A stretch of 35,815 bases of DNA. It comes from Myxococcales bacterium (GTDB lineage: Bacteria; Myxococcota_A; UBA796; SXON01). The translations under genes and the position numbers were made by a program. Within the stretch, counting starts at the first letter, position 1, and every line of letters begins with the position of its first letter. Shown here in pieces: positions 1,236 to 35,815 of this stretch. The DNA lies in assembly GCA_009692605.1 (NCBI GenBank), contig SHYV01000014.1:1-35815 (forward strand), read 5' to 3'. A model generated the notes under the pieces. It searched no databases. It worked only from the letters and a program-made list of their open reading frames with translations, and was not told the origin of the DNA.

Positions 1236-3803
1236 ATGGGCGCGGGGGTGCGACTACTAGAACGTTTCAGTGCCCAGATGGCACGGGAGCGCTCGGCCCA
1301 GCCGCCCGAGCGGGTGCAATTTGCCTGCGAGTTCGTCCGGCTACTGATGCAGACGGCGCTGGTGGTGCCCGAGCGGCTGGATTCCCGGTTCGGGGCCGCG
1401 CTCCGGGTGACCCGGGAGCGCTCGGGGTTGGACGCAGCTGCAGCCGGCATGCTGATTCGGCTCGCCGCTTCGCCCGAGTTCCGTGGGATTGAGAACGCCG
1501 ATGAGCTGAACGCGTTCGTCAGCAGGTTCGGCGAGGCCGCCGGGCAGGCGCTCAGGGCGGACGAGGAGTCGGACCTCGACTTGATTCAGTTCGCCGGCCG
1601 GTATGGGTCCTGGGAGGCGCTGCTGTTGCTGGACAGCATGTTCGCCACTGTCGCCGGAGACGGTGACATCGATCCGACTGAACTTCGCCGCCTCGAAAAC
1701 GCAGCGAGGGAGCTTGGTATCGACGGCGTTCTCTTCTCGGCCCTGCACCAGAAGCATGAGCCACGATACCGCACCGTGTCGTTGGACGGCGCTCCGACCG
1801 GCCTGGTGTTTCAACTCACGGGGGAGCGTGTCTCGATCGGGCGCTCGCCGGGCAACCACATCGTCTTGCCCGACCCTCAGGTCGGGGGCCACCACGTCGA
1901 TCTGGTGCGCGCCAGCGGCGGCTGGATGATCGTTGACGCCGAGTCCGGTCGACCCACCGTGTTGAACAGCCGGCCTGTCACGCGGGCGCCGCTCGCTCCG
2001 GGCGACGAGCTGCGGGTTGGTCCCTTCCGCGGCACGCTCGGGCCCGCGGGCACCCCGCTGGCTGATTCGCTCGTCATCCACAACGACCGGGTGTTCACGG
2101 CGTTGTCCATGCGCGGGCTCACGCGGATCATCAAGGCCGGTGGCAACGAGGTCTCGCTGCTCGATGACGTCAGCTTCACCGTATTCTCGGGGGAGGTCAT
2201 CGCGATGGTCGGGCCCTCGGGGGCCGGCAAGACGACGCTGCTGAACGCCATCGCGGGGGTGACGCCCGCCGACTGCGGGCAGGTGCTGTTCGACGGCCGG
2301 GACTTCCACGCCATGCTCGCCGTGGACCGCTCGCAGGTCGGCACCGTGCCGCAGGATGACATTGTGCACCCGGAGCTCACCGTCGAGGAGTCTCTGGATT
2401 TCAGTGGGCGGCTGCGCTTCCCGCCGGACACGCCGGAGGTCGAGCTGAAGGTCGCCGTCACTCGGGTGCTGCAAGAGCTGGGCATCGACCACATCCGGGG
2501 CTCCCGGATCGGCGATGCGACCCGGCGCGGCATCTCTGGCGGTCAGCGGAAGCGGGTCAACCTTGGACAGGAGCTCCTGTCCCGCTCCACCCGCGTGCTC
2601 TTCCTCGATGAGCCCACCAGCGGCCTGGACCCGCGCGCGGCGCAGGACATCGTCCGCCTGGTCCGTCAGCTCGCGGATCGGGGCCGCATCGTCTTCATCG
2701 TCACCCACGACCTGTCCCCGCAGGTGATGGCGCAGGTCGATCACCTGCTGGTGCTCGCGCCGGGTGGCCGGGTCGCGTTCTTCGGGCCGCCTGCCAGAGC
2801 GTGCGCGTACTTCAACGTGGCGACCCCCGACGCCATCTTCAACAAGTTTCAGGACAAGACCCCCGCCGCGTTCGGGGAGGCGTACCGGGCCAGCCCCGAC
2901 TTCCGGACCTTCGTGACGATGCGGGAGGACTTGCTGAAGCTCCCTGGCCGCAGCTCCGAACACATCGAGATTGCCCCGCGAAGGGTCTCGCGGCTGCAGC
3001 AGCTCGTGACGCAGGTGCGTAGGTACGCGAAGGTGAAGTTACGGGATCGAACCGGCCTTTGGGTTCTCGCCGCCCAGCCACCGTTCCTGGCGCTGGTCAT
3101 GTTCATCGTCTTCCCCAAGCCGACGAAGGCGATGATCTTCATGCTGACGCTGTCGTGCCTGTGGTTTGGGATGAGCGCGGCGGTGAGAGAGCTCATCGCC
3201 GACCGGGTGATCTGGGCTCGCGAACGCCGGGTTGGCCTTGGCGTGGTCCCGTACGTCGGCTCGAAGGTCGTGGTGCTCGGGACGCTGGCGGTGCTCCAGT
3301 GCACGTTTCTAGCCAGCCTCGATTGGGCGGTGTTCGGGCTGGGGGACTACGGGTTCAACCCGGCTTCGCTGGCGCTCATGGCGTCGCTGACCGGGGTCTG
3401 CGGTATGGCGCTGGGGCTGCTGGTCTCGGCCACCTTTTCGTCCAGCGAAGCCGCGGTCGGCACCCTGCCGCTCCTGCTCATCCCGCAGATCAGCTTCTCG
3501 TCCCTGCTGGTCGGCTTGCGCGAGATGAACTCGGTGTCGCGCGCCGTGACCGCGGTGGATCCGCTTCGGTATGCGTTTGACGCCCTGCTGAAGGTGGGCG
3601 ACAAGCTGGCCGAGCCATCGCGCATCGTCGGCAAGTGGGACACCCATGACATCACCGGGGCGCTCTACGAGCTCGGGCTAAAGGGCACCGCGGCGGACGA
3701 CAGCGGGCTCTCTCGGACGGCCCTCGCGATGGTGCTGCTCGGGTTCACCGCCGCGTTTCTGTTCGGGGCGTTCATGCGCGTGAAGACGCGCGGCACCCAC
3801 TGA
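1236..3803 (+). CDS. TerB-like/FHA/ABCG-type ABC transporter (ATPase and permease in one chain)
   Basis: An 855-aa half-transporter of the ABCG (ABC-2) type. Domain order: a helical N-terminal region whose part at about 125-165 resembles TerB (LLLLDSMFA, DGDIDPTE); an FHA domain at about 180-265; an ABC ATPase at about 280-520; and a C-terminal membrane domain of about six helices at 630-850. Walker A GPSGAGKTT is at 326-334, signature SGGQ at 434-437 and Walker B LFLDEP at about 455-460. The FHA keeps the IGRS phosphothreonine-binding Arg, but its usual SxxH loop reads GGHH, so the Ser is lost. AGGGAG upstream supports the ATG. FHA-ABCG proteins are often controlled by Ser/Thr kinases in myxobacteria and cyanobacteria; the substrate is unknown. 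It probably dimerises to form a full exporter. Confidence 0.92.
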   Translation: MGAGVRLLERFSAQMARERSAQPPERVQFACEFVRLLMQTALVVPERLDSRFGAALRVTRERSGLDAAAAGMLIRLAASPEFRGIENADELNAFVSRFGEAAGQALRADEESDLDLIQFAGRYGSWEALLLLDSMFATVAGDGDIDPTELRRLENAARELGIDGVLFSALHQKHEPRYRTVSLDGAPTGLVFQLTGERVSIGRSPGNHIVLPDPQVGGHHVDLVRASGGWMIVDAESGRPTVLNSRPVTRAPLAPGDELRVGPFRGTLGPAGTPLADSLVIHNDRVFTALSMRGLTRIIKAGGNEVSLLDDVSFTVFSGEVIAMVGPSGAGKTTLLNAIAGVTPADCGQVLFDGRDFHAMLAVDRSQVGTVPQDDIVHPELTVEESLDFSGRLRFPPDTPEVELKVAVTRVLQELGIDHIRGSRIGDATRRGISGGQRKRVNLGQELLSRSTRVLFLDEPTSGLDPRAAQDIVRLVRQLADRGRIVFIVTHDLSPQVMAQVDHLLVLAPGGRVAFFGPPARACAYFNVATPDAIFNKFQDKTPAAFGEAYRASPDFRTFVTMREDLLKLPGRSSEHIEIAPRRVSRLQQLVTQVRRYAKVKLRDRTGLWVLAAQPPFLALVMFIVFPKPTKAMIFMLTLSCLWFGMSAAVRELIADRVIWARERRVGLGVVPYVGSKVVVLGTLAVLQCTFLASLDWAVFGLGDYGFNPASLALMASLTGVCGMALGLLVSATFSSSEAAVGTLPLLLIPQISFSSLLVGLREMNSVSRAVTAVDPLRYAFDALLKVGDKLAEPSRIVGKWDTHDITGALYELGLKGTAADDSGLSRTALAMVLLGFTAAFLFGAFMRVKTRGTH

Positions 3804-24105: not shown

Positions 24106-26289
24106 CTACAGCACCTTCCTGCCCGCGACCCGGTTGAGCAGCCGACTCTGCACCACCATCACGCCGAAGATGATGACGGCGTAGGCAGCCCCGTAGCCGT
24201 ACCGATGGCCCCGCGTGAACGCCCATCGGTAGGCTTGCGAGACGAGGATGTCGGTCGACCCGTCCGGCTCACCGCCGCTGACCAGAAAGATCACGTTGAA
24301 CATGTTGAAGGTCCAGACACTACCGAGGATGACGGCGGGTAACAACGCTGGCTTGAGCATCGGCAGGGTCACCAGCCAGAACTTTTGCCACCCCGTCGCA
24401 CCGTCCAGCTCGGCCGCTTCTTCCACCTCGCGGGAGACGCTTTGCAGAGCCCCGAGCGTGACCACCATCATGAACGGGAACCCGAGCCAGGTGTTCGTCG
24501 CGACGTTGGCCGCAAAGGCGGTGGTCCACTGTGCGAACCAGCTCACTGGGGCGATACCACAGATCCCAAGAAGGGCGTTGATCGCTCCGAACTGCTGGTG
24601 AAACATGCCCTTCCACGCCAGCGCGGTGATGTAGTTCGGCACCGCCCAGGGCAGGATCAGGAGCGCGCGGAACACCCCGCGCACCTTGACCCACGGCTCC
24701 CGAAGCATCAACGCCAGAAACACCCCGAGCGAGACGTGGAGCACAACGTTGGTGAGCGTCCAGATAAGGGTGACGGCGAGGGTGTACCAGAACGACAAGG
24801 CTCGGGTAGACGCGTCGGTCAGCGGAAAGTCCCGGGACAGCAGGATGTCAGTGAAGTGGGCGAAGCCTACAAACCGCCACGTCCCGTCGCTGGCCGATCC
24901 GCTCACCTCGAACAGGCTCACGCTCGCCCCGACCACGAAGGGCGCCACCACCAGCAGGACCACGGCGAGACCCCCTGGCGCCACCCAAAGGTACTCGCGC
25001 CACGCCTTGACGACGTTCGCCACGTACATCTGACGTACGGCCCATGCAGCCCCAAGCGCGAGCCCCAGCCCGAGCAGCCACGCGAAGGGTCGTCCATCGA
25101 CGGTGGGCGCTTCCGGTCGTGACACGACGAGCCACGTGGTCTGGGCCTCTGCCGCGGCTTGCTCCGGCGTGGCCGCCCCACGCACCAGCCGCCGCAGCGC
25201 CCGAGCGAGCGGCTCCCACGTCTGGGCCATGGCCGGCACGGTGGGCATGGGCACCGCGAGATCCGCCTGACGCTGAAACGCAGCGAGCACGGGGTCATCC
25301 GGCAGGGCGGCGGGGGCTCCCCCCGCTCCCGGCACCACCTGCTTGCCCTCCGCAGCCCGGCGACCGGCGATGTCGGGGCGCTGCAGGTAGGCGGCAAAGT
25401 CGCGGGCGAGCCCATCCGCTTCGCGCGTAGACGGGGCCGGCCTGCCGGCGAGAAACAGGGCCTCCACGGTGAGGTACGGCGCGGCGGGCAAGCCGGTGGA
25501 CGACACCCTCGGCAAGGGGGCGACCGCGAAGTCGGGCCCGCCGCGCTCCTGCGGTTCGATCTCGCCGAGGAACCACGGTCCGTTCGGGACCATCGCCACC
25601 TTTCCGCTGTTGAAGAGCTGCGTGATCAGGGCGCCTGACGTCTCCGCCGGGCCCAGCGCGGCGAGCTGCTGGATGAACGCGAACGCGGCGCGGTTCTCGG
25701 GTCGATCGAGCTGGGCCCGCCCGTCTACCAGCGCCCCGCCGCCGAAGCCGTGCATGAACGGGGCGTTGTGGTACGCGCTGGTGGCCTCCCACGCAAAACC
25801 CCAACGCGTCGGCTCGGTGGGGTGGTCCCGCAGCTGGTCGGCGAGGCGCAGCAGGTCGTCGGTGGTCTCGGGCGGGACCGGGACGAGCGCACGGTTGTAG
25901 AAGAGCGCCAGACACTTGGTCGCCAACGGCCAGCCGTACAGCAGGCTGTCGTCGCCTGCGAGCGCGCCGTGCGCAGCGTCGGTGTAGTCTGCGGCGGGAC
26001 CGACGGGTTGGATGAGCGCGGTCTTGACCCAGTCCCCAAGCCTCTCGTGCGCGAAGATGAAGAGATCCGGCCCGTTGCCGCGTGGGACGGCCGCCTCAAG
26101 CTTGCTGGCGAGCGACTCGTAGGGCACCGAGACCAGCTCGATCTGGTCGCCCGGGTGGGCTGACTGATACTCGCTCGTCAACTCCTCCAGCACCGCGCGC
26201 TCCTCCCCGCGCCAGGCGTGCCAGAGCGTGATCTCGGTCGCGGCGGCCGGAGCAGACAGCAGCTGCAGCCCGAATAAAATCAGGCTCAA
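24106..26289 (-). CDS. Fused MalE-MalF: solute-binding domain joined to an ABC permease
   Basis: A 727-aa single chain. Residues 1-18 are a signal segment; about 19-395 form an extracellular solute-binding domain of the maltose type ([48 protein letters not shown]). A transmembrane helix at about 404-424 leads into the cytoplasm, and about 435-727 is a MalF-like permease with at least six helices and the EAA loop [20 protein letters not shown] at about 622-641. The binding domain is thus tethered at the periplasmic face, replacing a free or lipid-anchored binding protein. TTG 26289 overlaps the ATPase stop (TTGA). It is convergent with malG, five bases away. Substrate unknown; gene order suggests di- or oligosaccharides. 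Confidence 0.9.
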
Positions 26290-28160: not shown

Positions 28161-30656
28161 GTGTTGACCCCCGAACGCCCGAAGCTGCCGCGACCCGCGG
28201 GCTGGCTGTTCCCGCTGGGGGTAAGCGCGCTGCTGTGCTTCGGTCACCTCGGGCGCTGGTCGCTCTGGCAAGACGAGGCGTTCACGTGGGTGCTCATGCA
28301 GAAGGACCTGCCGGGCATGATCGGCGCGGCCGGGCAGGACCGGCACCCGCCGCTCTACTACCTGATCGTCGCGGCCTTCCGCTGGCTCGGGGACCGGGAC
28401 TTCGCCCTGCGGTTGCCCTCGGCGCTCGGCGTGGTGGCCTCGGTGGGGCTGACGGGTTGGGCTGGGGGCCGATACTTTGGCGGTCGGGTTGGGCTGGTGG
28501 CGGCGTGGGTGATGGCGCTGTCGCCGTACGCGCTGCTGTACGCCAGCACCGCCCGGATGTACGGGCTGCTGATGTTCTGGGGTGCGCTCCTGTTTGCGAC
28601 GGGTTTGGGCGTTTCCCGAGGATCTCGACCGGGGAGATGGGCCGTTGCCCTGTGCCTCGCCGCCGCTGGCGCGTTGTGGACGCACTACGCGGGTGCGGCC
28701 GCCATCGCCGCGACCGGCCTTGGGGTAGGGTTGGACCTGCTGGCTCGGGGCTCATTGCGTGGGACTGCGGGCGGCTCGCCCGGCGGTCGGCGCGGTCAGG
28801 CCGAGCCACAGAACGCCGCGTCACCGATCGGCGGGCTGGCCTGGGCGCGGCTTGGCCTGCTCGTGCTGGCGTTGGGCCTCGCGGGCCTCTCGTTTGTCCC
28901 TTGGGCGCTCGGTCCGCTGCGCTTCCAGCTCGCGAACAAGGACGCGCCGTCCGACCGCACATGGACCGTGCTCGCTTATCTGTGGTGGAACTTCGACAGT
29001 CGGGTGCCTGCGCTCTCCTGGGCGCTATCAGGCCTGCAGGTCGCGGGTCTCGGCGTCGCGATTCGGCGGCGGGATCCGCTCTTGCTCGGCTGGGTGCTCG
29101 CTGCGCTGGTCTTTCCGTGGTTCGCGTCGCGGTCTGGGCCCGCACAGAACCCCCGTAATTACAGTGATTTCCTTCCGCTCGCCAGCGTCCTCGTCGGGCT
29201 GGCGGTGGACTCCGTCCTGCGCGCGGCGCGACGCCCCGGCGCGGCCGGATGGTCGCTCTTCGGGCTCCTCCTCCTTGCCGCCGAGCCGCTCCATGACCTC
29301 TGGACGCGGCCGGTCAGCCCCCAGGAGGTCGGCACCGGCTTCGACTACCGAGTGGAGGCCGACGTCCTTGACGCCGCGGCGCCCAAGAACGGGGGGCTCT
29401 ACTTTCGGCCCCCCTTCCTGCTGGCCCAGTACCAGCGCTACGCTCCCGCGCTGGTGGCTCGAGGCCAGCGCCCGGTGGACCGGTACGCGTGGTTGGCCAG
29501 CTCACGGTCCGAGTGGGTCGACAGCACGGTGACCAGCCGCTTTCCTGCGGAGTGTACGTTCGCCGTTGCTTTCCGGCAGGTGCTGTACGCAGCGCCCGGT
29601 GAGGGGTGCGAGGCGCTGGCGGGCTGGGTCGAGCACGTCGCCGACGCCGGGGGCGAGGCTGGCGGGGGCTATGTTCCGTTCCAGCTTGAATTGGCGCGCC
29701 GCGCGCTCGCAGCCAACGACCTTCCTCTTGCCCGATCGTGGGCGGAGCGCGCCCAGAAGACCCTCGTGGGCCACCCCGCCGCCGCTCTTGCGGTGGCCGA
29801 GGCCGCCACGCGTCAAGGCGACCACCCTGCTGCGCTGGAGGCCGCGTTGCACGCGGTGGCGATCACGCGATCCTGGCGCTGGGCGGGTCCGGCCATCGCC
29901 CAAGCGTGGACCACCGCGGCGAGGGCGTTCGAGAAGTTGGAGCGCTACGAGGACCGGGCCCGCGCGCTGGATGCGGCGAATTGTGCGAGAAAGGTGCTGT
30001 GGCCGTGGTTTTGCGGCACGGGCCCCGGGTCGGGGCGGGTGATGTCGCTGCTGCCGCTCGCGCCGGGCGGCGGCCTTCCTCCGACGATCGCTCCGCTCCC
30101 TGCGCTTAGCGAGTCGCAGTCGCCGCCTCCGCCTGTTGCGGTGCCGGTCGGCGGGGCGCGGCTTGGCCTTTGGCCTCTGGACGGTGAGGTGCTCCCGTCC
30201 GGCTGGAGCGACGCCGGCGGGACGGTCGCGGATCCATCGGCGGTGATGGACCTCGTCGACGGTTTTGCCGTCCTGTCGCTCGCGGTTGGCGGCGACCGGT
30301 CCACTGCGTTGGCGTGCGCTCCGATGGTGCCGGCCTCGCCGCTGATGGCGGTCCGCGCCCGCTGGCGCGCGGACATGCACACGGGCCCGGCGGCGGGGGG
30401 CGCGGGTCGCACATGGATCTTCTTCGAGGCGCGGATGGCTGGGCCCGACGGTCGGGTGATGCAGCTTGGGGGCTCACCGGTGATGGAGCGGCCCCTGACG
30501 ACGGCGAGCGGCACCTCGTGGCGTGTGGACCGCTTTGAGTTCCGCGCCCTCCCGGATGCTCGTGAAGTTCGACTCTGCTTGAAGGTAGATGGCGACGTCC
30601 CGACTCGCCTCGCGGTCGACTGGATCGAGGTTTTGGCGCTGCAGGAGGCCGAATGA
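28161..30656 (+). CDS. GT39-like membrane glycosyltransferase with TPR and C-terminal beta module
   Basis: An 831-aa protein. After TM1 comes WSLWQDEAFTWVLM, with the catalytic DE of family 39 enzymes, then HPPLYYLIVAAFRW, their second hallmark. About ten transmembrane helices reach residue about 380. Residues about 390-500 are an extracytoplasmic domain, about 505-610 form TPR-like helices (LARRALAANDLPLARSW), and about 668-831 form a beta-rich module ending VDWIEVLAL. The last module is related to both halves of the lipoprotein encoded next (see findings). It probably moves a sugar from a polyprenyl-phosphate carrier to an exported acceptor. GTG 28161 has no Shine-Dalgarno and the stop overlaps the next start (ATGA). 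Confidence 0.82.
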   Translation: MLTPERPKLPRPAGWLFPLGVSALLCFGHLGRWSLWQDEAFTWVLMQKDLPGMIGAAGQDRHPPLYYLIVAAFRWLGDRDFALRLPSALGVVASVGLTGWAGGRYFGGRVGLVAAWVMALSPYALLYASTARMYGLLMFWGALLFATGLGVSRGSRPGRWAVALCLAAAGALWTHYAGAAAIAATGLGVGLDLLARGSLRGTAGGSPGGRRGQAEPQNAASPIGGLAWARLGLLVLALGLAGLSFVPWALGPLRFQLANKDAPSDRTWTVLAYLWWNFDSRVPALSWALSGLQVAGLGVAIRRRDPLLLGWVLAALVFPWFASRSGPAQNPRNYSDFLPLASVLVGLAVDSVLRAARRPGAAGWSLFGLLLLAAEPLHDLWTRPVSPQEVGTGFDYRVEADVLDAAAPKNGGLYFRPPFLLAQYQRYAPALVARGQRPVDRYAWLASSRSEWVDSTVTSRFPAECTFAVAFRQVLYAAPGEGCEALAGWVEHVADAGGEAGGGYVPFQLELARRALAANDLPLARSWAERAQKTLVGHPAAALAVAEAATRQGDHPAALEAALHAVAITRSWRWAGPAIAQAWTTAARAFEKLERYEDRARALDAANCARKVLWPWFCGTGPGSGRVMSLLPLAPGGGLPPTIAPLPALSESQSPPPPVAVPVGGARLGLWPLDGEVLPSGWSDAGGTVADPSAVMDLVDGFAVLSLAVGGDRSTALACAPMVPASPLMAVRARWRADMHTGPAAGGAGRTWIFFEARMAGPDGRVMQLGGSPVMERPLTTASGTSWRVDRFEFRALPDAREVRLCLKVDGDVPTRLAVDWIEVLALQEAE

Positions 30657-31798
30657 CGTACTCCAGAGCGCGTTGGGGGGCCCTGGCGCGCCTGGGGTCG
30701 GCGCTCGGGATCGGAGGAGTCTCCGGTTGCGGCACCGAGACGGAGCGACTCGGCTTTGCCCCGTGGCCTGACGCGCCGGTGGTCGCGGACGTGCCGAGCG
30801 ATGTGCCCCAGGCGGAGTCCCGCGCGTTTGACATGAATTTTGGCGGGGGCGTCGCCGGTGCGCCGTACGGAGTCGGGTTCTTCGTCCCGCCCGGGGTGGT
30901 CGCGTCGCCGGTCGCGGGGCGGCTGTCGGACGGCTCGATGGGGTTTAGTTTCACGGTGCCCACGCCGGGCGACGCGGTGGTGTGCACAGCGCCCGTGCGC
31001 ATGCAGGGGCGGGTGTCCTTGTCGGGAAGGATGCGAGTGGCTGAGCTGGTCACCACGGCGGAGCTCTGGACCGGCTTCGACGTGGAGCTGCGGGCGCGGG
31101 ATGAACAGAAGCGCCTGGTCTCGCCTGAAGGAACCAAGTTTGTGCGCGTGGCCCACGTCCGCGAGCAGGGCGGTTTTGAGGAGTGGAGCGCGGAGATCGA
31201 GGTGCCCACCGCTGCGGTGCAGGCGGAGGTGTGCTGGCGTTTTCTGGGGGCGACAGGCACCGTGGAGGTTGACCGCGTCGTGGTGGAGAGCCCCGGGATG
31301 CCAGTGCCCGTTGCGGCTCCGATCGTCAGCGTGGAGTGGCCGATGGACGAGCCTGGAGGTCCCGGGGGAGCCCCGTTGGGGTTCTCGTTCCTCATTCCTC
31401 CCGGGACGACGGGAGCGGCGCTGTCCCTGAACGAGGGAGAGGGGCTCCGCATCGCGGTCGACAACCCCGGTAATGCGCTTGCCTGCTCTGATGCGTTCTC
31501 GGTCGCGCCCGGCATCGTTGTCAGCGGGCGGGTGAAGGTGGACCGCGTCCAGAGCGACGACCACCCGTGGACCGGTTTTGTCGCGGAGGTGCGCAGCTAC
31601 GACATGGTGGGCCGCCTCGCTTCGTCGGGGACCACGCCGTTCACGCTGCTCAGGGCGTGGAAGTTGCCCACGACGGGTTGGGAGGACTTCACAGCCCCGT
31701 TCGCCCCGCCGAAGGGGGCGGTGTCCGGTAAGGTGTGCTTTCGGTTCGTCGAGGCCACCGGAGTGGCGGACGTCGATGGCGCGGGGGTGGGGGAGTAG
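30653..31798 (+). CDS. Putative lipoprotein with two tandem beta-sandwich-like modules
   Basis: A 381-aa protein co-translated with the glycosyltransferase (ATGA overlap). A basic N-terminus and hydrophobic stretch end in the lipobox-like VSGC, with Cys26 as likely lipid anchor; the hydrophobic stretch is short, so this is moderate evidence. Residues about 60-215 and 225-381 are two copies of one module: both have a VPPG/IPPG turn, a WTGFxxE strand and a WxxxxxxxxxPxxAVxxxVCxRFxxATGxxxVD end. The same pattern closes the glycosyltransferase. The fold looks like a carbohydrate-binding-type beta sandwich, but that is inferred. The C-terminus stops abruptly at GVGE, as if the last strand were trimmed. 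Function unknown; glycan binding at the membrane is a reasonable idea. Confidence 0.75.
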   Translation: MTYSRARWGALARLGSALGIGGVSGCGTETERLGFAPWPDAPVVADVPSDVPQAESRAFDMNFGGGVAGAPYGVGFFVPPGVVASPVAGRLSDGSMGFSFTVPTPGDAVVCTAPVRMQGRVSLSGRMRVAELVTTAELWTGFDVELRARDEQKRLVSPEGTKFVRVAHVREQGGFEEWSAEIEVPTAAVQAEVCWRFLGATGTVEVDRVVVESPGMPVPVAAPIVSVEWPMDEPGGPGGAPLGFSFLIPPGTTGAALSLNEGEGLRIAVDNPGNALACSDAFSVAPGIVVSGRVKVDRVQSDDHPWTGFVAEVRSYDMVGRLASSGTTPFTLLRAWKLPTTGWEDFTAPFAPPKGAVSGKVCFRFVEATGVADVDGAGVGE

Positions 31799-31806
31799 CC
31801 CGCCGC

Positions 31807-33312
31807 TCAATCCTCCGAGTACAGCGCGATGTCGATCGGCGAGCGCCCGTCGGTGAAGGATACGACGATGCGATCGGACAGGATCGCCGTCACCTTGCCT
31901 TTGCGGTCCAGCAGGTGGGATCCGACGTGGACGAGGAACGGGTGGTCGTGGTCGTCGACGAGCAGGGCCGAAGGGCGCTGGCCGTTGGCGAGCCCCACGA
32001 GCCACAGCGCGTCCAAGTCCACCGAGTCCAGCGAGATCGTGGACTGTCCTCCTGACTTATCTGCGGGCGCGGGGGGGAGCTTTGCCTTCGCCGTCTTCCT
32101 TACCTGAAGCTCAGTCTTCGTCGGTGTGGCGGCGAGACCGACGGACTTCAGCATGGCGGTGCAGAACGCTCGAAGCGAGCCGGCCCCTGAGGCCGTGACC
32201 CGGGCGTCCTTCCAGGGCTCGGCCGGCCCTGACCATCGGACCACGAGGCCGGCGGCGCGCGCGGCGAGCTTCAGGGCATCCTCGGCGCGGACCCCGGCTA
32301 CGACGAACTCGCCCGGCTCCAGAGGCGCTGGCGCAGCGATCACGGCCGGCGCTGGGTGCCAGAGCTGCAGGTCCCGGAACGGATCGCGCAGTCCGGCCGG
32401 ATTGTAGGACCAAGCTGTCGTCAGGGCCGGTCCGCTCGGCCACGCGACGCCGGGGGGGGCGACGGCGCCGCCTGGGTCCAGAGCCGGCGTTGGCCACAAG
32501 AGCTCCCCGCGTACAGCCACCGCGACGTCGTCGAGCGGCCAGCCCAATCGGGACGCGGACTGCGCGCGGGCCAACCCGTGGCCGACCAGCCCTGCAGGCG
32601 GGACCCCCATCGTCAATTCCAGCGCGGACCAATAGCTGGGTTCCGGGGATCGCTGCAGGAGGTCCATGAGCACTGCGAGGTCGTGGAACCGGCAATATCC
32701 GGTGACCTGGATCGGGAGGAGGTCCACGGCGCCGACCCTGCGGTCCGGCCGGATGTCGAACACGAGCCCGGTCGCACCCTGCGCGTCTGCCGCATCACGA
32801 GCCGTCTTGAGCGCCGCGGTGCGCGAAAGTTCGGTCGCGGGCGACCCGAGGACACGCCTCGCGTCGAAGCCACCCGGACTGGCGGACGCCGAGCGCGGCA
32901 CGGTGACGAGGGCATGAATGGCGAAGGGGTCGATGTGGAGCCGGGACTCAAGACCGCATTGAACGATGCGTCCGTCTGCGCAAAGCGCCTTCGTAAACGC
33001 CTGCCTCTCGGCCGGGTCTCCACCCAGACCCTCGATGCGGAGCACCGGGCCGGAGACGTGCAACCTGGTCACTCGAACGTGGTCTGGCGTGGCGTGCGCG
33101 ACTTCATCAAGGAGCACCAGCAGGGCGGGTCGCAGCGCCTCGAGCGCCGCGATGGAGGCGTCGCCGTAAAGCTCCGCTGCCTGTGTGGAAGTCAGCGGCT
33201 CTGCGGCGACGGTCGGGGCGCTGCTAGCGGCGAGCCCGACACAGAGCAGCAGCACGGACCTTAGGCTCGGGTACGGTGGGGCTTGGCTGGGCGTGTGCGG
33301 GGCGGTTCTCAT
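31807..33312 (-). CDS. Secreted composite protein with PilN-, PilO-, STN- and PilP-like domains
   Basis: From ATG 33312 it has 501 aa; an in-frame start at 33390 only adds a non-hydrophobic leader. Residues 17-37 form a signal peptide. About 50-135 resemble the periplasmic part of PilN (LLDEVAHATPDHVRVTRLHV and VLRIEGLGGDP). About 160-275 resemble PilO (IQVTGYCRFHDLAVLMDLLQ, then the Tyr-Trp-containing strand). RDPF at 309-312 is the motif that precedes PilP domains. About 335-405 look like a secretin/TonB short N-terminal (STN) domain, and 427-490 like the PilP beta domain (LDALWLVGLANG, GSHLLDRKGKVTAI). In type IV pili PilN, O and P are separate proteins joining the inner-membrane platform to the secretin. 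No other pilus gene is in the window. Confidence 0.75.
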   Translation of the reverse strand: MRTAPHTPSQAPPYPSLRSVLLLCVGLAASSAPTVAAEPLTSTQAAELYGDASIAALEALRPALLVLLDEVAHATPDHVRVTRLHVSGPVLRIEGLGGDPAERQAFTKALCADGRIVQCGLESRLHIDPFAIHALVTVPRSASASPGGFDARRVLGSPATELSRTAALKTARDAADAQGATGLVFDIRPDRRVGAVDLLPIQVTGYCRFHDLAVLMDLLQRSPEPSYWSALELTMGVPPAGLVGHGLARAQSASRLGWPLDDVAVAVRGELLWPTPALDPGGAVAPPGVAWPSGPALTTAWSYNPAGLRDPFRDLQLWHPAPAVIAAPAPLEPGEFVVAGVRAEDALKLAARAAGLVVRWSGPAEPWKDARVTASGAGSLRAFCTAMLKSVGLAATPTKTELQVRKTAKAKLPPAPADKSGGQSTISLDSVDLDALWLVGLANGQRPSALLVDDHDHPFLVHVGSHLLDRKGKVTAILSDRIVVSFTDGRSPIDIALYSED

Positions 33313-33422: not shown

Positions 33423-34262
33423 ATGATGTTGCCACTAGCGCTACACGTTCTGTTGAGCCTTCAGGTGCTCTCCCCTGCGATTGCGGCCGAATCCGGTTCG
33501 AGTTGTGCCGGAACCTCTACGGTCGCGGAGTTTCTAGCGGCGTCCGCAGCTGGTGAAGCCGCGTTCGCAGAGATGGACGTCGATGCGCTGGTCAAGGCGC
33601 AGAAGGACGGGGCGCGTGCGTTGCCCTGCCTGGCGGAGCCGGTCAAGCCGAAGGACGCCGCGGCGTTCCACCGCATGAACGGGCTCCTTCTGTTCACCAG
33701 GCCAGATCTGGCGGGCGCGCTCTCCGAGTTTCATGCGGCTCGGCGGCTTGAGCCTGGGTACCAGATCCCCGAAAGCGTGGCGCCGCAGGGGCACCCGCTG
33801 GTGGCCCTCTACGACGCGTCGGCGTCGGCGGACGAGGGCGAACTGCAGCCTGTGCAGGCCAGCGGGGGCGGGGAGATCTTAGTCGACGGGGTGCGCACGT
33901 CGCTCCGCCCGAACGGCGTATCGGTCATCGTTCAGCGCGTCGATGCGCTCGGCAAGATTGAGAACTCGCTCTACCTCGAGGCGAAGACGGCGCTGCCTTC
34001 CTGGGCGATACCCCCGAAGGCGGTGTCGCGCAGGGGCCTTCACGCCGGCTTCATCGCCGGGACCGCGGGGGCAGCGGTCGTGGGCGGAGTGACCTACGGC
34101 CTGGCGCTCTCCGCGAAGGGCGAGTTTGGGGACACGGCGCATCCCGTGCCTGATTCCGAGCTTCCGGGACTTCGGGAGCGGGCGAATACGCTCACCTACG
34201 CCTCGATGGGAGTAGGTGCCGTGGCGCTGGCGCTCGGCACGATGACCGTCGTCACCTGGTAG
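33423..34262 (+). CDS. Secreted protein with TPR-like part and C-terminal membrane helices
   Basis: A 279-aa protein of unknown function. Residues 1-22 are a signal peptide ending AIAAES. A helical part (about 30-130) contains AFHRMNGLLLFTRPDLAGAL and SEFHAARRLEPGYQIPE, like a half TPR, a pattern common in myxobacterial envelope proteins. A small beta domain follows (GGGEILVDGVRTSLRPNG, about 143-180, PEGA-like in style), then two transmembrane helices (about 206-225 and 257-276). It is the gene next to a Ser/Thr kinase, four bases before its start codon region, and may be part of the same operon. The first or second ATG (33423 or 33426) is the start, depending on where the transcript begins. 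Confidence 0.75.
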   Translation: MMLPLALHVLLSLQVLSPAIAAESGSSCAGTSTVAEFLAASAAGEAAFAEMDVDALVKAQKDGARALPCLAEPVKPKDAAAFHRMNGLLLFTRPDLAGALSEFHAARRLEPGYQIPESVAPQGHPLVALYDASASADEGELQPVQASGGGEILVDGVRTSLRPNGVSVIVQRVDALGKIENSLYLEAKTALPSWAIPPKAVSRRGLHAGFIAGTAGAAVVGGVTYGLALSAKGEFGDTAHPVPDSELPGLRERANTLTYASMGVGAVALALGTMTVVTW

Positions 34263-34266
34263 ATCC

Positions 34267-35815
34267 GTGAACGAGCCGGCGCCGAACCTGGAGTCGATCG
34301 CCAACGGGCGGTACGAGGTCCGCGGTTTGCTCGGGCAGGGGGGGATGGCTGCGGTCTATCTGGTGTACGACCGCCGGCTGCGAGTGGAATGCGCGGTGAA
34401 GGTGCTCGCCCCCGAGTTCTCTGCGAAGGCCGACCTGCGGCGCCGGTTCGAGACCGAGGCCAGCACCATGGCGCGGCTGCGACACCCAAACATCGCGTCG
34501 GTCTTCGACATCGGCGATGACAACGGGGCGCCCTACCTCGTCATGGAGCTGATCTCCGGCGGCAGCCTCAACGATTATGTCGAGGCCAACGGGCCGCTCC
34601 CGCCGCGGCTCGCAGTCGACGTGTGCGTGTCCGTCCTGACGGCCTTGCACGTCGCGCACGAGAGTGGCGTCATCCACCGGGACATCAAGCCCCACAACGT
34701 CCTCCTCGCCCGCGACGGCACGGCTAAGGTCACCGACTTCGGCATCGCCCGCGTGCAGTCGGATGATTCGCCGTCGATGACACGCACCGGCTCGATCATG
34801 GGCACGTGGGCGTACATGGCGCCGGAACAGCGCGCCGGCTCCCGTGGACTCGATGGGCGGGCAGACATCTACTCCACCGGTGCGATGCTCATGGACTTGC
34901 TGACCGGGGAGGCCCCGGCCGACATCTTCATGTGCGAGATGCACACTCAGATGCTCGACGCCGTCGTCAAGCCCCTCCAGCCGATCATTCAGCGCGCCGT
35001 GCGTTACCTCCCTGCCGAGCGGTACGCCTCGGCCACCGAGATGATCAGCGCCTTGCAGCAGGTCCTGCCCGAGCTCGAGCCGGTCCCCCGGGACCATCCG
35101 AGGCTCGGGCGCGGTGAGGGCGGGGTCTCCCGATTTCCGCCGGTCCGGGTTGGCGACCGCTCGTCCCCCCCCGGTTCGGTCCCCAGCTCGTCGTCGTCGT
35201 CCGGCTCTACTCCCAAGGGCGAGACGTACAGCTTTGACGATGGCCCCATCCCCCCTTCCGGAGGGTTTCCTGCGGCTCGCGATGGTCTGGCGTCGACCGG
35301 TTCGTCTCGGCCCGCCGCGTTCAGCGTCGCTCCGACCCCCCGGGAGCAGGACAGCTTGTCCAGCCATACGCAGGTCCCGGATGCCGGTCGCCTCCGGCAG
35401 ATGCGCGGAGAGACGGGTGGTGGTGGCCCCCCTGCGGTTCCGCTGGGCGATGGCCCCCATTTGTCTGCTCGGGTGCCGTCCCGCCTCCCGTGGATCTTCG
35501 GGGGGGTCGCCGGTCTTGGCATGCTGGGCGCGCTGGCATTGGGAGTGCAGGTTTGGGTTCGTCCACCGACCCCGGCCCTGGACGGTTCGCAGGTGGCCGT
35601 GGCGTCAGGCGACGTCGCTCCGGTGGTCGCGCTCGTCGATCCGGCCCTGTCCGGCTCCCCCGTCCCGCTCGTTCCCCCCGGCGCCCCCCCCGGCGCCCCC
35701 GACATCGCTGCGCTTGATTCAGTGGGCTCGAGTGAACCTCCCGTGAGCGGGTCATCGGCAGATGCGCCAGTCGCGCTCTCCAAGCCTGAGGTGAAGGCGG
35801 TGGTGAAGGCGGTGG
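34267..35815 (+). CDS. Hanks-type Ser/Thr protein kinase, 3'-truncated by the window end
   Basis: The frame is open from GTG 34267 through the last base, giving at least 516 aa. The kinase domain spans about 15-275: glycine loop LLGQGGMAAVY, ATP-binding K45 in AVKVL, catalytic HRDIKPHN (H137, D139, K141, N144), DFG at 157-159 and MAPEQ in the activation segment. A long Ser/Pro/Gly-rich linker (about 285-405) leads to one transmembrane helix (about 410-430) and a Pro/Val/Ala-rich extracytoplasmic part that runs off the edge. All catalytic residues are present, so it should be active. Such kinases signal from the envelope to cytoplasmic targets, often FHA proteins; the FHA-ABCG transporter at 1236 is one candidate partner in principle. 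Confidence 0.93.
   Translation, partial: MNEPAPNLESIANGRYEVRGLLGQGGMAAVYLVYDRRLRVECAVKVLAPEFSAKADLRRRFETEASTMARLRHPNIASVFDIGDDNGAPYLVMELISGGSLNDYVEANGPLPPRLAVDVCVSVLTALHVAHESGVIHRDIKPHNVLLARDGTAKVTDFGIARVQSDDSPSMTRTGSIMGTWAYMAPEQRAGSRGLDGRADIYSTGAMLMDLLTGEAPADIFMCEMHTQMLDAVVKPLQPIIQRAVRYLPAERYASATEMISALQQVLPELEPVPRDHPRLGRGEGGVSRFPPVRVGDRSSPPGSVPSSSSSSGSTPKGETYSFDDGPIPPSGGFPAARDGLASTGSSRPAAFSVAPTPREQDSLSSHTQVPDAGRLRQMRGETGGGGPPAVPLGDGPHLSARVPSRLPWIFGGVAGLGMLGALALGVQVWVRPPTPALDGSQVAVASGDVAPVVALVDPALSGSPVPLVPPGAPPGAPDIAALDSVGSSEPPVSGSSADAPVALSKPEVKAVVKAV

Follow-up and report, generated by a model that had tools for sequence, protein, structure and literature searches.

PilN, PilO and PilP are normally three separate proteins that align the type IV pilus machine. 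Their pairing and the handover to the secretin have been hard to study because these proteins are separate and tethered to the membrane. In the window analyzed here, a 35,815-nucleotide stretch of contig SHYV01000014.1 from a Myxococcales bacterium, one gene had been predicted to collapse PilN-, PilO-, STN- and PilP-like domains into a single exported chain, raising the questions of which of these domains are present, how such a gene could have arisen and what its product might do. Our analyses support a single gene for a secreted protein that strings PilN-, PilO- and PilP-type pieces together, with the PilO piece graded separately below. A natural soluble chain that combines the three in order would give structural studies a ready-made target, and it would demonstrate that this subcomplex can leave the membrane and be reused.

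One open reading frame for an exported protein

The source assembly (G000) is a myxobacterium-like MAG of 3.9 Mb in 186 contigs, 79% complete. The open reading frame at 31807-33312 on the minus strand is unbroken over 501 codons, its G+C by codon position resembles that of the window's other genes, and it is a genuine gene; a clear ribosome-binding site was not seen upstream of the ATG at 33312. The features of this gene are as follows:

31807..33312, minus strand: whole gene, 501 amino acids plus stop, ATG start at 33312 (open reading frame, G+C by codon position)
33202..33312, minus strand: predicted signal peptide with a V-A-A end, residues 1-37 (sequence and hydropathy)
32887..33156, minus strand: PilN-like periplasmic domain, residues 53-142 (Pfam PF05137, profile, hhalign, glocal test, AlphaFold2)
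32491..32841, minus strand: probable PilO-like domain, residues 158-274 (weak profile match, AlphaFold2 order alpha-beta-beta-alpha-beta-(alpha)-beta)
32377..32406, minus strand: YNPAGLRDPF, corresponding to the PilP-invariant block YNPxGKRDPF, residues 303-312 (alignments A1 and A2, profile)
32098..32319, minus strand: extra alpha/beta domain, secretin-N-like (STN/N0 or N1) at best, residues 332-405 (alignment, AlphaFold2, N0 profile z=1.8)
31819..32034, minus strand: PilP/GspC homology-region (HR) beta domain, residues 427-498 (profile, AlphaFold2, Foldseek)

A hydrophobic stretch at residues 19-37 ends in VAA, and hydropathy analysis of all 501 residues found no other segment of transmembrane strength; on the same scale, the canonical PilN and PilO of this genome reach 1.9 and 2.4, respectively. 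The fusion is thus missing both the PilN transmembrane helix and the N-terminal transmembrane helix of PilO, in agreement with the claim of a signal peptide without these helices. The PilM-binding cytoplasmic N terminus of the INLLP type is absent as well, and the predicted signal peptide is found in its place. Inspected by eye, this signal peptide contains no fitting lipobox (an LLLC lacks the small residue before the Cys) and the PilP lipid anchor was not found in the fusion; the PilP of the same genome shows a lipobox-like NAC. We infer that the signal peptide may stand in for the membrane helices of PilN and PilO and for the lipid anchor of PilP.

PilN-, PilO- and PilP-like domains

Profile searches, set beforehand as the test that could overturn the domain assignments, placed PilN and PilP far above shuffled sequences. 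Pfam PF05137 (PilN) matches residues 67-110 of the full-length protein (E=4.1e-5, 24.0 bits against a cut-off of 22.8; 21.9 bits as a fragment). Using PilN, PilO and PilP profiles built from canonical operons of relatives in the same order, the PilN profile scored 15.9 bits, with none of 2000 shuffles as good (best 2.3), and hhalign to this profile gave P=7.4e-6 across residues 53-142; a glocal PilN test gave z=4.9. Among 864 proteins searched with the PilN profile, the listed entries that ranked below the fusion (10-15 bits) were mostly PilO proteins, matching via the N-terminal region. AlphaFold2, run on residues 37-300 with 39 PilN rows and no PilO rows, modelled this domain as alpha-beta-beta-alpha-beta-beta at a pLDDT of about 94. 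PilN homology, on which Pfam, the order-specific profile, hhalign and the fold model agree, is therefore well supported.

Residues 158-274 are probably PilO-like, as suggested by weak statistics and a model of medium confidence. The broader order-specific hmm profile for PilO gave 2.2 bits with none of 3000 shuffles as good, the broader core profile was equaled by 6 of 1000 shuffles, and two hmm profiles converged on residues 185-220. A narrower profile with stiffer gaps in glocal mode found no signal (295 of 1000 shuffles as good), and Pfam gave no PilO match to either the full protein or the fragment. Modelled without PilO rows, this stretch showed the PilN-like strand order with an additional helix (pLDDT 50-79 for the most part), so that the ferredoxin-like topology of PilO was found with medium confidence. 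Foldseek searches with the N-terminal half returned the GspL-type proteins PulL, XcpY and EpsL, as well as PulM and the PilO structures 5uvr and 2rjz, all at E values of 0.07-0.33; because designed and polymerase proteins were matched at similar E values, these matches support the fold class and not the family. The predicted PilO-like domain is backed by the modelled topology and weakly by two shuffle tests, and finds no backing from Pfam or from one profile setting.

By comparison, PilP homology is certain, as judged from sequence and model. Although Pfam PilP (PF04351) matched residues 427-484 with 19.3 bits (E 0.0012), under the cut-off of 25.6, the order-specific PilP profile matched residues 420-485 with 37.4 bits (E about 1e-10); none of 2000 shuffles was as good (best 3.9 bits) and the next non-pil protein reached 7.9 bits. 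An iterated PilP profile (58.7 bits) was set aside since the query had been absorbed into it. The only relevant sequence match in the PDB was PilP of M. xanthus (3jc8, E 0.0076). In a second AlphaFold2 run, on residues 288-501 with 42 PilP rows, the HR beta domain was modelled at a pLDDT of about 96, and Foldseek with this model retrieved PilP (3jc8, 2ivw, 2y4y) and the GspC HR (3oss). The profile, fold model and structural matches thus bear out the predicted PilP-like domain. A second match to the PilP profile, at residues 298-331 (11.6 bits), covers the RDPF motif, which had been noticed ahead of the PilP part and which proved to be PilP's own invariant block. The retention of the YNPxGxRDPF block in a protein with an overall identity of 27-38% to PilPs argues for selection. 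A PilP tree calculated to place the fusion gave it a very long branch, and the placement was spoiled by long-branch effects.

Genomic context and proposed origin of the fusion gene

The genome carries, on contig C1, an intact pilM-N-O-P-Q operon (L037) alongside the fusion gene, and the domain order of the fusion (N-O-P) is the gene order of that operon. Since the domain order copies the operon order, in-frame fusion of a duplicated pilNOP would be the simplest account of its origin. The fusion gene itself sits outside any pilMNOPQ operon, with no pilus or secretion genes next to it. A search for co-occurring secretins, as originally suggested, found two in the assembly, both away from the window: PilQ on C1 and GspD on C140 (T2SS secretin locus L038). 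Partners therefore exist for the proposed orphan docking factor of a machine encoded elsewhere, but no link between the gene and either of them was seen.

The fusion gene converges on a secreted-protein gene (30653-31798), itself located after a PMT_2 glycosyltransferase-like gene. On the other side, in divergent orientation, lies a conserved pair of genes for a secreted protein and a kinase (33423-34262 and from 34267). Both flanking blocks are present in relatives, where they stand apart and lack the fusion gene wherever their surroundings were read; the fusion gene thus lies at a junction of gene blocks that are separate in relatives. Further observations were made on the neighboring genes. 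The secreted protein at 30653-31798 has two apparently similar halves and is conserved together with the PMT_2-like gene (28161-30656) in G133 and G295. The secreted-protein and Ser/Thr kinase pair (33423-35814) occurs in several genomes of the order, with identities of 72% and 80% in G088, and its secreted protein is one of a large set of paralogs, with up to 23 matches per genome searched. Elsewhere in the window, the single open reading frame at 24106-26289 joins an extracellular solute-binding protein domain to an ABC permease domain, and that at 1236-3803 combines FHA/Yop-YscD-type domains with an ABC ATPase and an ABC-2 membrane domain.

The same domain string, which the note had proposed to look for in related genomes, did not turn up: searches of the order (63 genomes), the class (71) and a phylum sample of 379 genomes yielded no full-length relative. 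Likewise, peptide-pattern searches of genome_contigs and viral_contigs found no relative, nor did tblastn against plasmids and phages; as pattern scans detect close relatives only, distant relatives may exist. Of three long PilP frames in relatives (395, 398 and 618 amino acids), the one that was read (L043 in G142) seems to consist of ordinary operon genes whose frames extend too far. During these searches, pil genes of the myxobacterial clade were also met under Bifidobacterium breve or Klebsiella pneumoniae titles (L084, L088, L097, L099), and these titles look wrong. Judged by its sequence, the protein condenses the pilus alignment subcomplex into one exported chain, encoded by an orphan gene that is apparently unique.

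Could such a singleton be a relic without function, left from a pilNOP duplicate that deletions have reduced to one frame and that is about to disappear? Its absence from the other genomes searched in the order and class, its location at the junction of gene blocks, its very divergent sequence and the lack of a clear ribosome-binding site would all fit. However, all 501 codons are open with coding-type G+C by position, the PilP motif and the HR core are retained, and a signal peptide fits in place of the anchors; a decaying gene would seldom lose two transmembrane helices cleanly and acquire both a signal peptide and an insert that folds. We consider a relic unlikely.

Putative function

The explanation that we favor, tentatively and with a little less than even confidence, is a soluble periplasmic protein that derives from a collapsed pilNOP duplicate and uses its HR domain to engage a secretin. 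A copy of pilN-pilO-pilP would have fused in frame in operon order; the PilN part would have lost its cytoplasmic tail and helix, the PilO part its helix and the PilP part its lipid anchor; a single signal peptide would export the fused chain, into whose PilP part an extra alpha/beta domain would have been inserted. In the periplasm, the PilN- and PilO-like domains may form an intramolecular pair that holds the PilP-type RDPF loop, and the HR domain may bind N0 of a secretin of the same cell (PilQ or GspD), as normal PilP or GspC does. Because the HR fold is retained in the model, secretin docking is predicted as the most likely activity, by analogy with these proteins. With no membrane tie and no PilM-binding tail, the protein would not couple the secretin to the motor as PilNOP does; it would instead cap, stabilize or compete at the secretin, which is our leading inference, and it may serve as a soluble substitute or regulator for the outer-membrane pilus channel.

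Alternatively, and somewhat less probably than a relic, the protein may belong to the scaffold of a different envelope machine that has reused pilus parts, like the flagellar cage of Campylobacterota. The mixing of a PilP loop with PilQ N domains in one chain has a precedent there (PMC11870540), and FliG was found in three of four genus mates, which indicates that flagella occur in the genus. Against this, FliG was not found in the assembly that carries the fusion (79% complete), the flagellated genus mates are without the fusion, and nearby scaffold genes are absent.

The extra domain inside the PilP part

In canonical PilP the RDPF block is followed by a short linker and the HR domain, whereas in the alignment the two are separated in the fusion by an insertion of about 90 residues. 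This insert was modelled as helix-strand-(helix)-strand-helix (pLDDT 57-83) with no alignment rows and with uncertain ends, and a compact alpha/beta domain of about 80 residues is predicted, at residues 332-405. Its helix and strand order is compatible with a secretin N domain, with the last strand absent from the model. Neither Pfam STN (PF07660, PF21305), also when applied to the fragment, nor NCBIfam gave a match, and N0 profiles from PilQ and GspD did not reach significance on the insert; the N0 profile score (z=1.8) corresponds to an uncorrected p of about 0.045-0.05. Foldseek gave weak KH-type matches, possibly from the insert and closer to N1. The STN/N0 identity of the insert is thus unproven. 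Of the predicted STN-like domain before PilP, what stands is that an extra domain precedes the HR; it lies inside the PilP part, and the STN/N0 label has no significant match. For the four-way collapse as a whole, PilN, PilP, their order and the missing helices hold, PilO is probable, and the STN identity of the extra domain is unproven.

If the insert were a true N0-like domain docked on the HR of its own chain, in imitation of the contact between PilP and PilQ, the protein could be self-closed; on opening, it would pass on a secretin or block it. The position of the insert directly before the HR, its helix and strand order and an N0-profile z-score that is the highest of the four segments tested are consistent with this, but the borderline p value, the missing STN match and the KH-type structural matches nearer N1 make it slightly less likely again than a scaffold part. 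More broadly, a soluble PilN-PilO-PilP module with its own secretin-N-like domain against the HR, acting as a membrane-independent cap, adaptor or regulator of a secretin, would give the pilus alignment subcomplex a novel architecture; we regard this as an improbable, speculative possibility, on a par with decay. Finally, an assembly or open reading frame artefact or a chance compositional resemblance, which a MAG contig with flanking blocks that are non-adjacent in relatives might suggest, is very improbable given independent matches to two families that lie far above shuffled sequences, the RDPF block in correct order, the fold models and a sequence that differs from the intact operon, so that the fusion cannot result from misjoined copies of the known pil genes.

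Comparison with known systems

A limited search of open papers found no PilN-PilO-PilP fusion. Stand-alone PilP-like genes, judged by sequence, form an orphan PilP class in the order (L039:6324-6683, L040:5710-6303, L041:5961-6452 and L042:6609-7112; two in G230, and G200 and G195), one of which adjoins an rpsD-like gene. Like the fusion, these genes carry a PilP HR away from pilN and pilO, but their products have 119-197 amino acids and consist of the PilP part only, with no insert.

With the type II secretion system (T2SS), the fusion shares the fold of GspL and GspM and of the GspC HR, as seen in the Foldseek matches to PulL, XcpY, EpsL, PulM and GspC. However, its sequence is nearer to PilN and PilP, it has no transmembrane anchors, and no T2SS gene is nearby. 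In both systems the contact to the secretin has been described: the C-domain of PilP binds N0 of PilQ and the HR of GspC binds N0 of GspD (PMC3441751).

In Campylobacterota, the flagellar cage includes FcpMNO, derived from PilMNO, and PflD, derived from a PilP loop and a PilQ N1 domain, and PilM-PilN gene fusions have also been reported (PMC11870540). These proteins resemble the fusion in borrowing PilN and PilO and in combining PilP-type with PilQ-N-type pieces on one chain, but they are separate membrane proteins, PflD has a PilQ N1-type domain with no HR described, and no flagellar link was found for the fusion.

The PilN/PilO/PilP subcomplex of the type IVa pilus, which acts with PilM and PilQ, shares with the fusion the PilN-type and PilO-type periplasmic domains, the RDPF block, the HR and the operon order. 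By contrast, the fusion is one chain and not three, lacks the PilM-binding tail, the transmembrane helices and the lipid anchor, has an extra domain in its PilP part and lies outside the operon, beside an intact pilMNOPQ.
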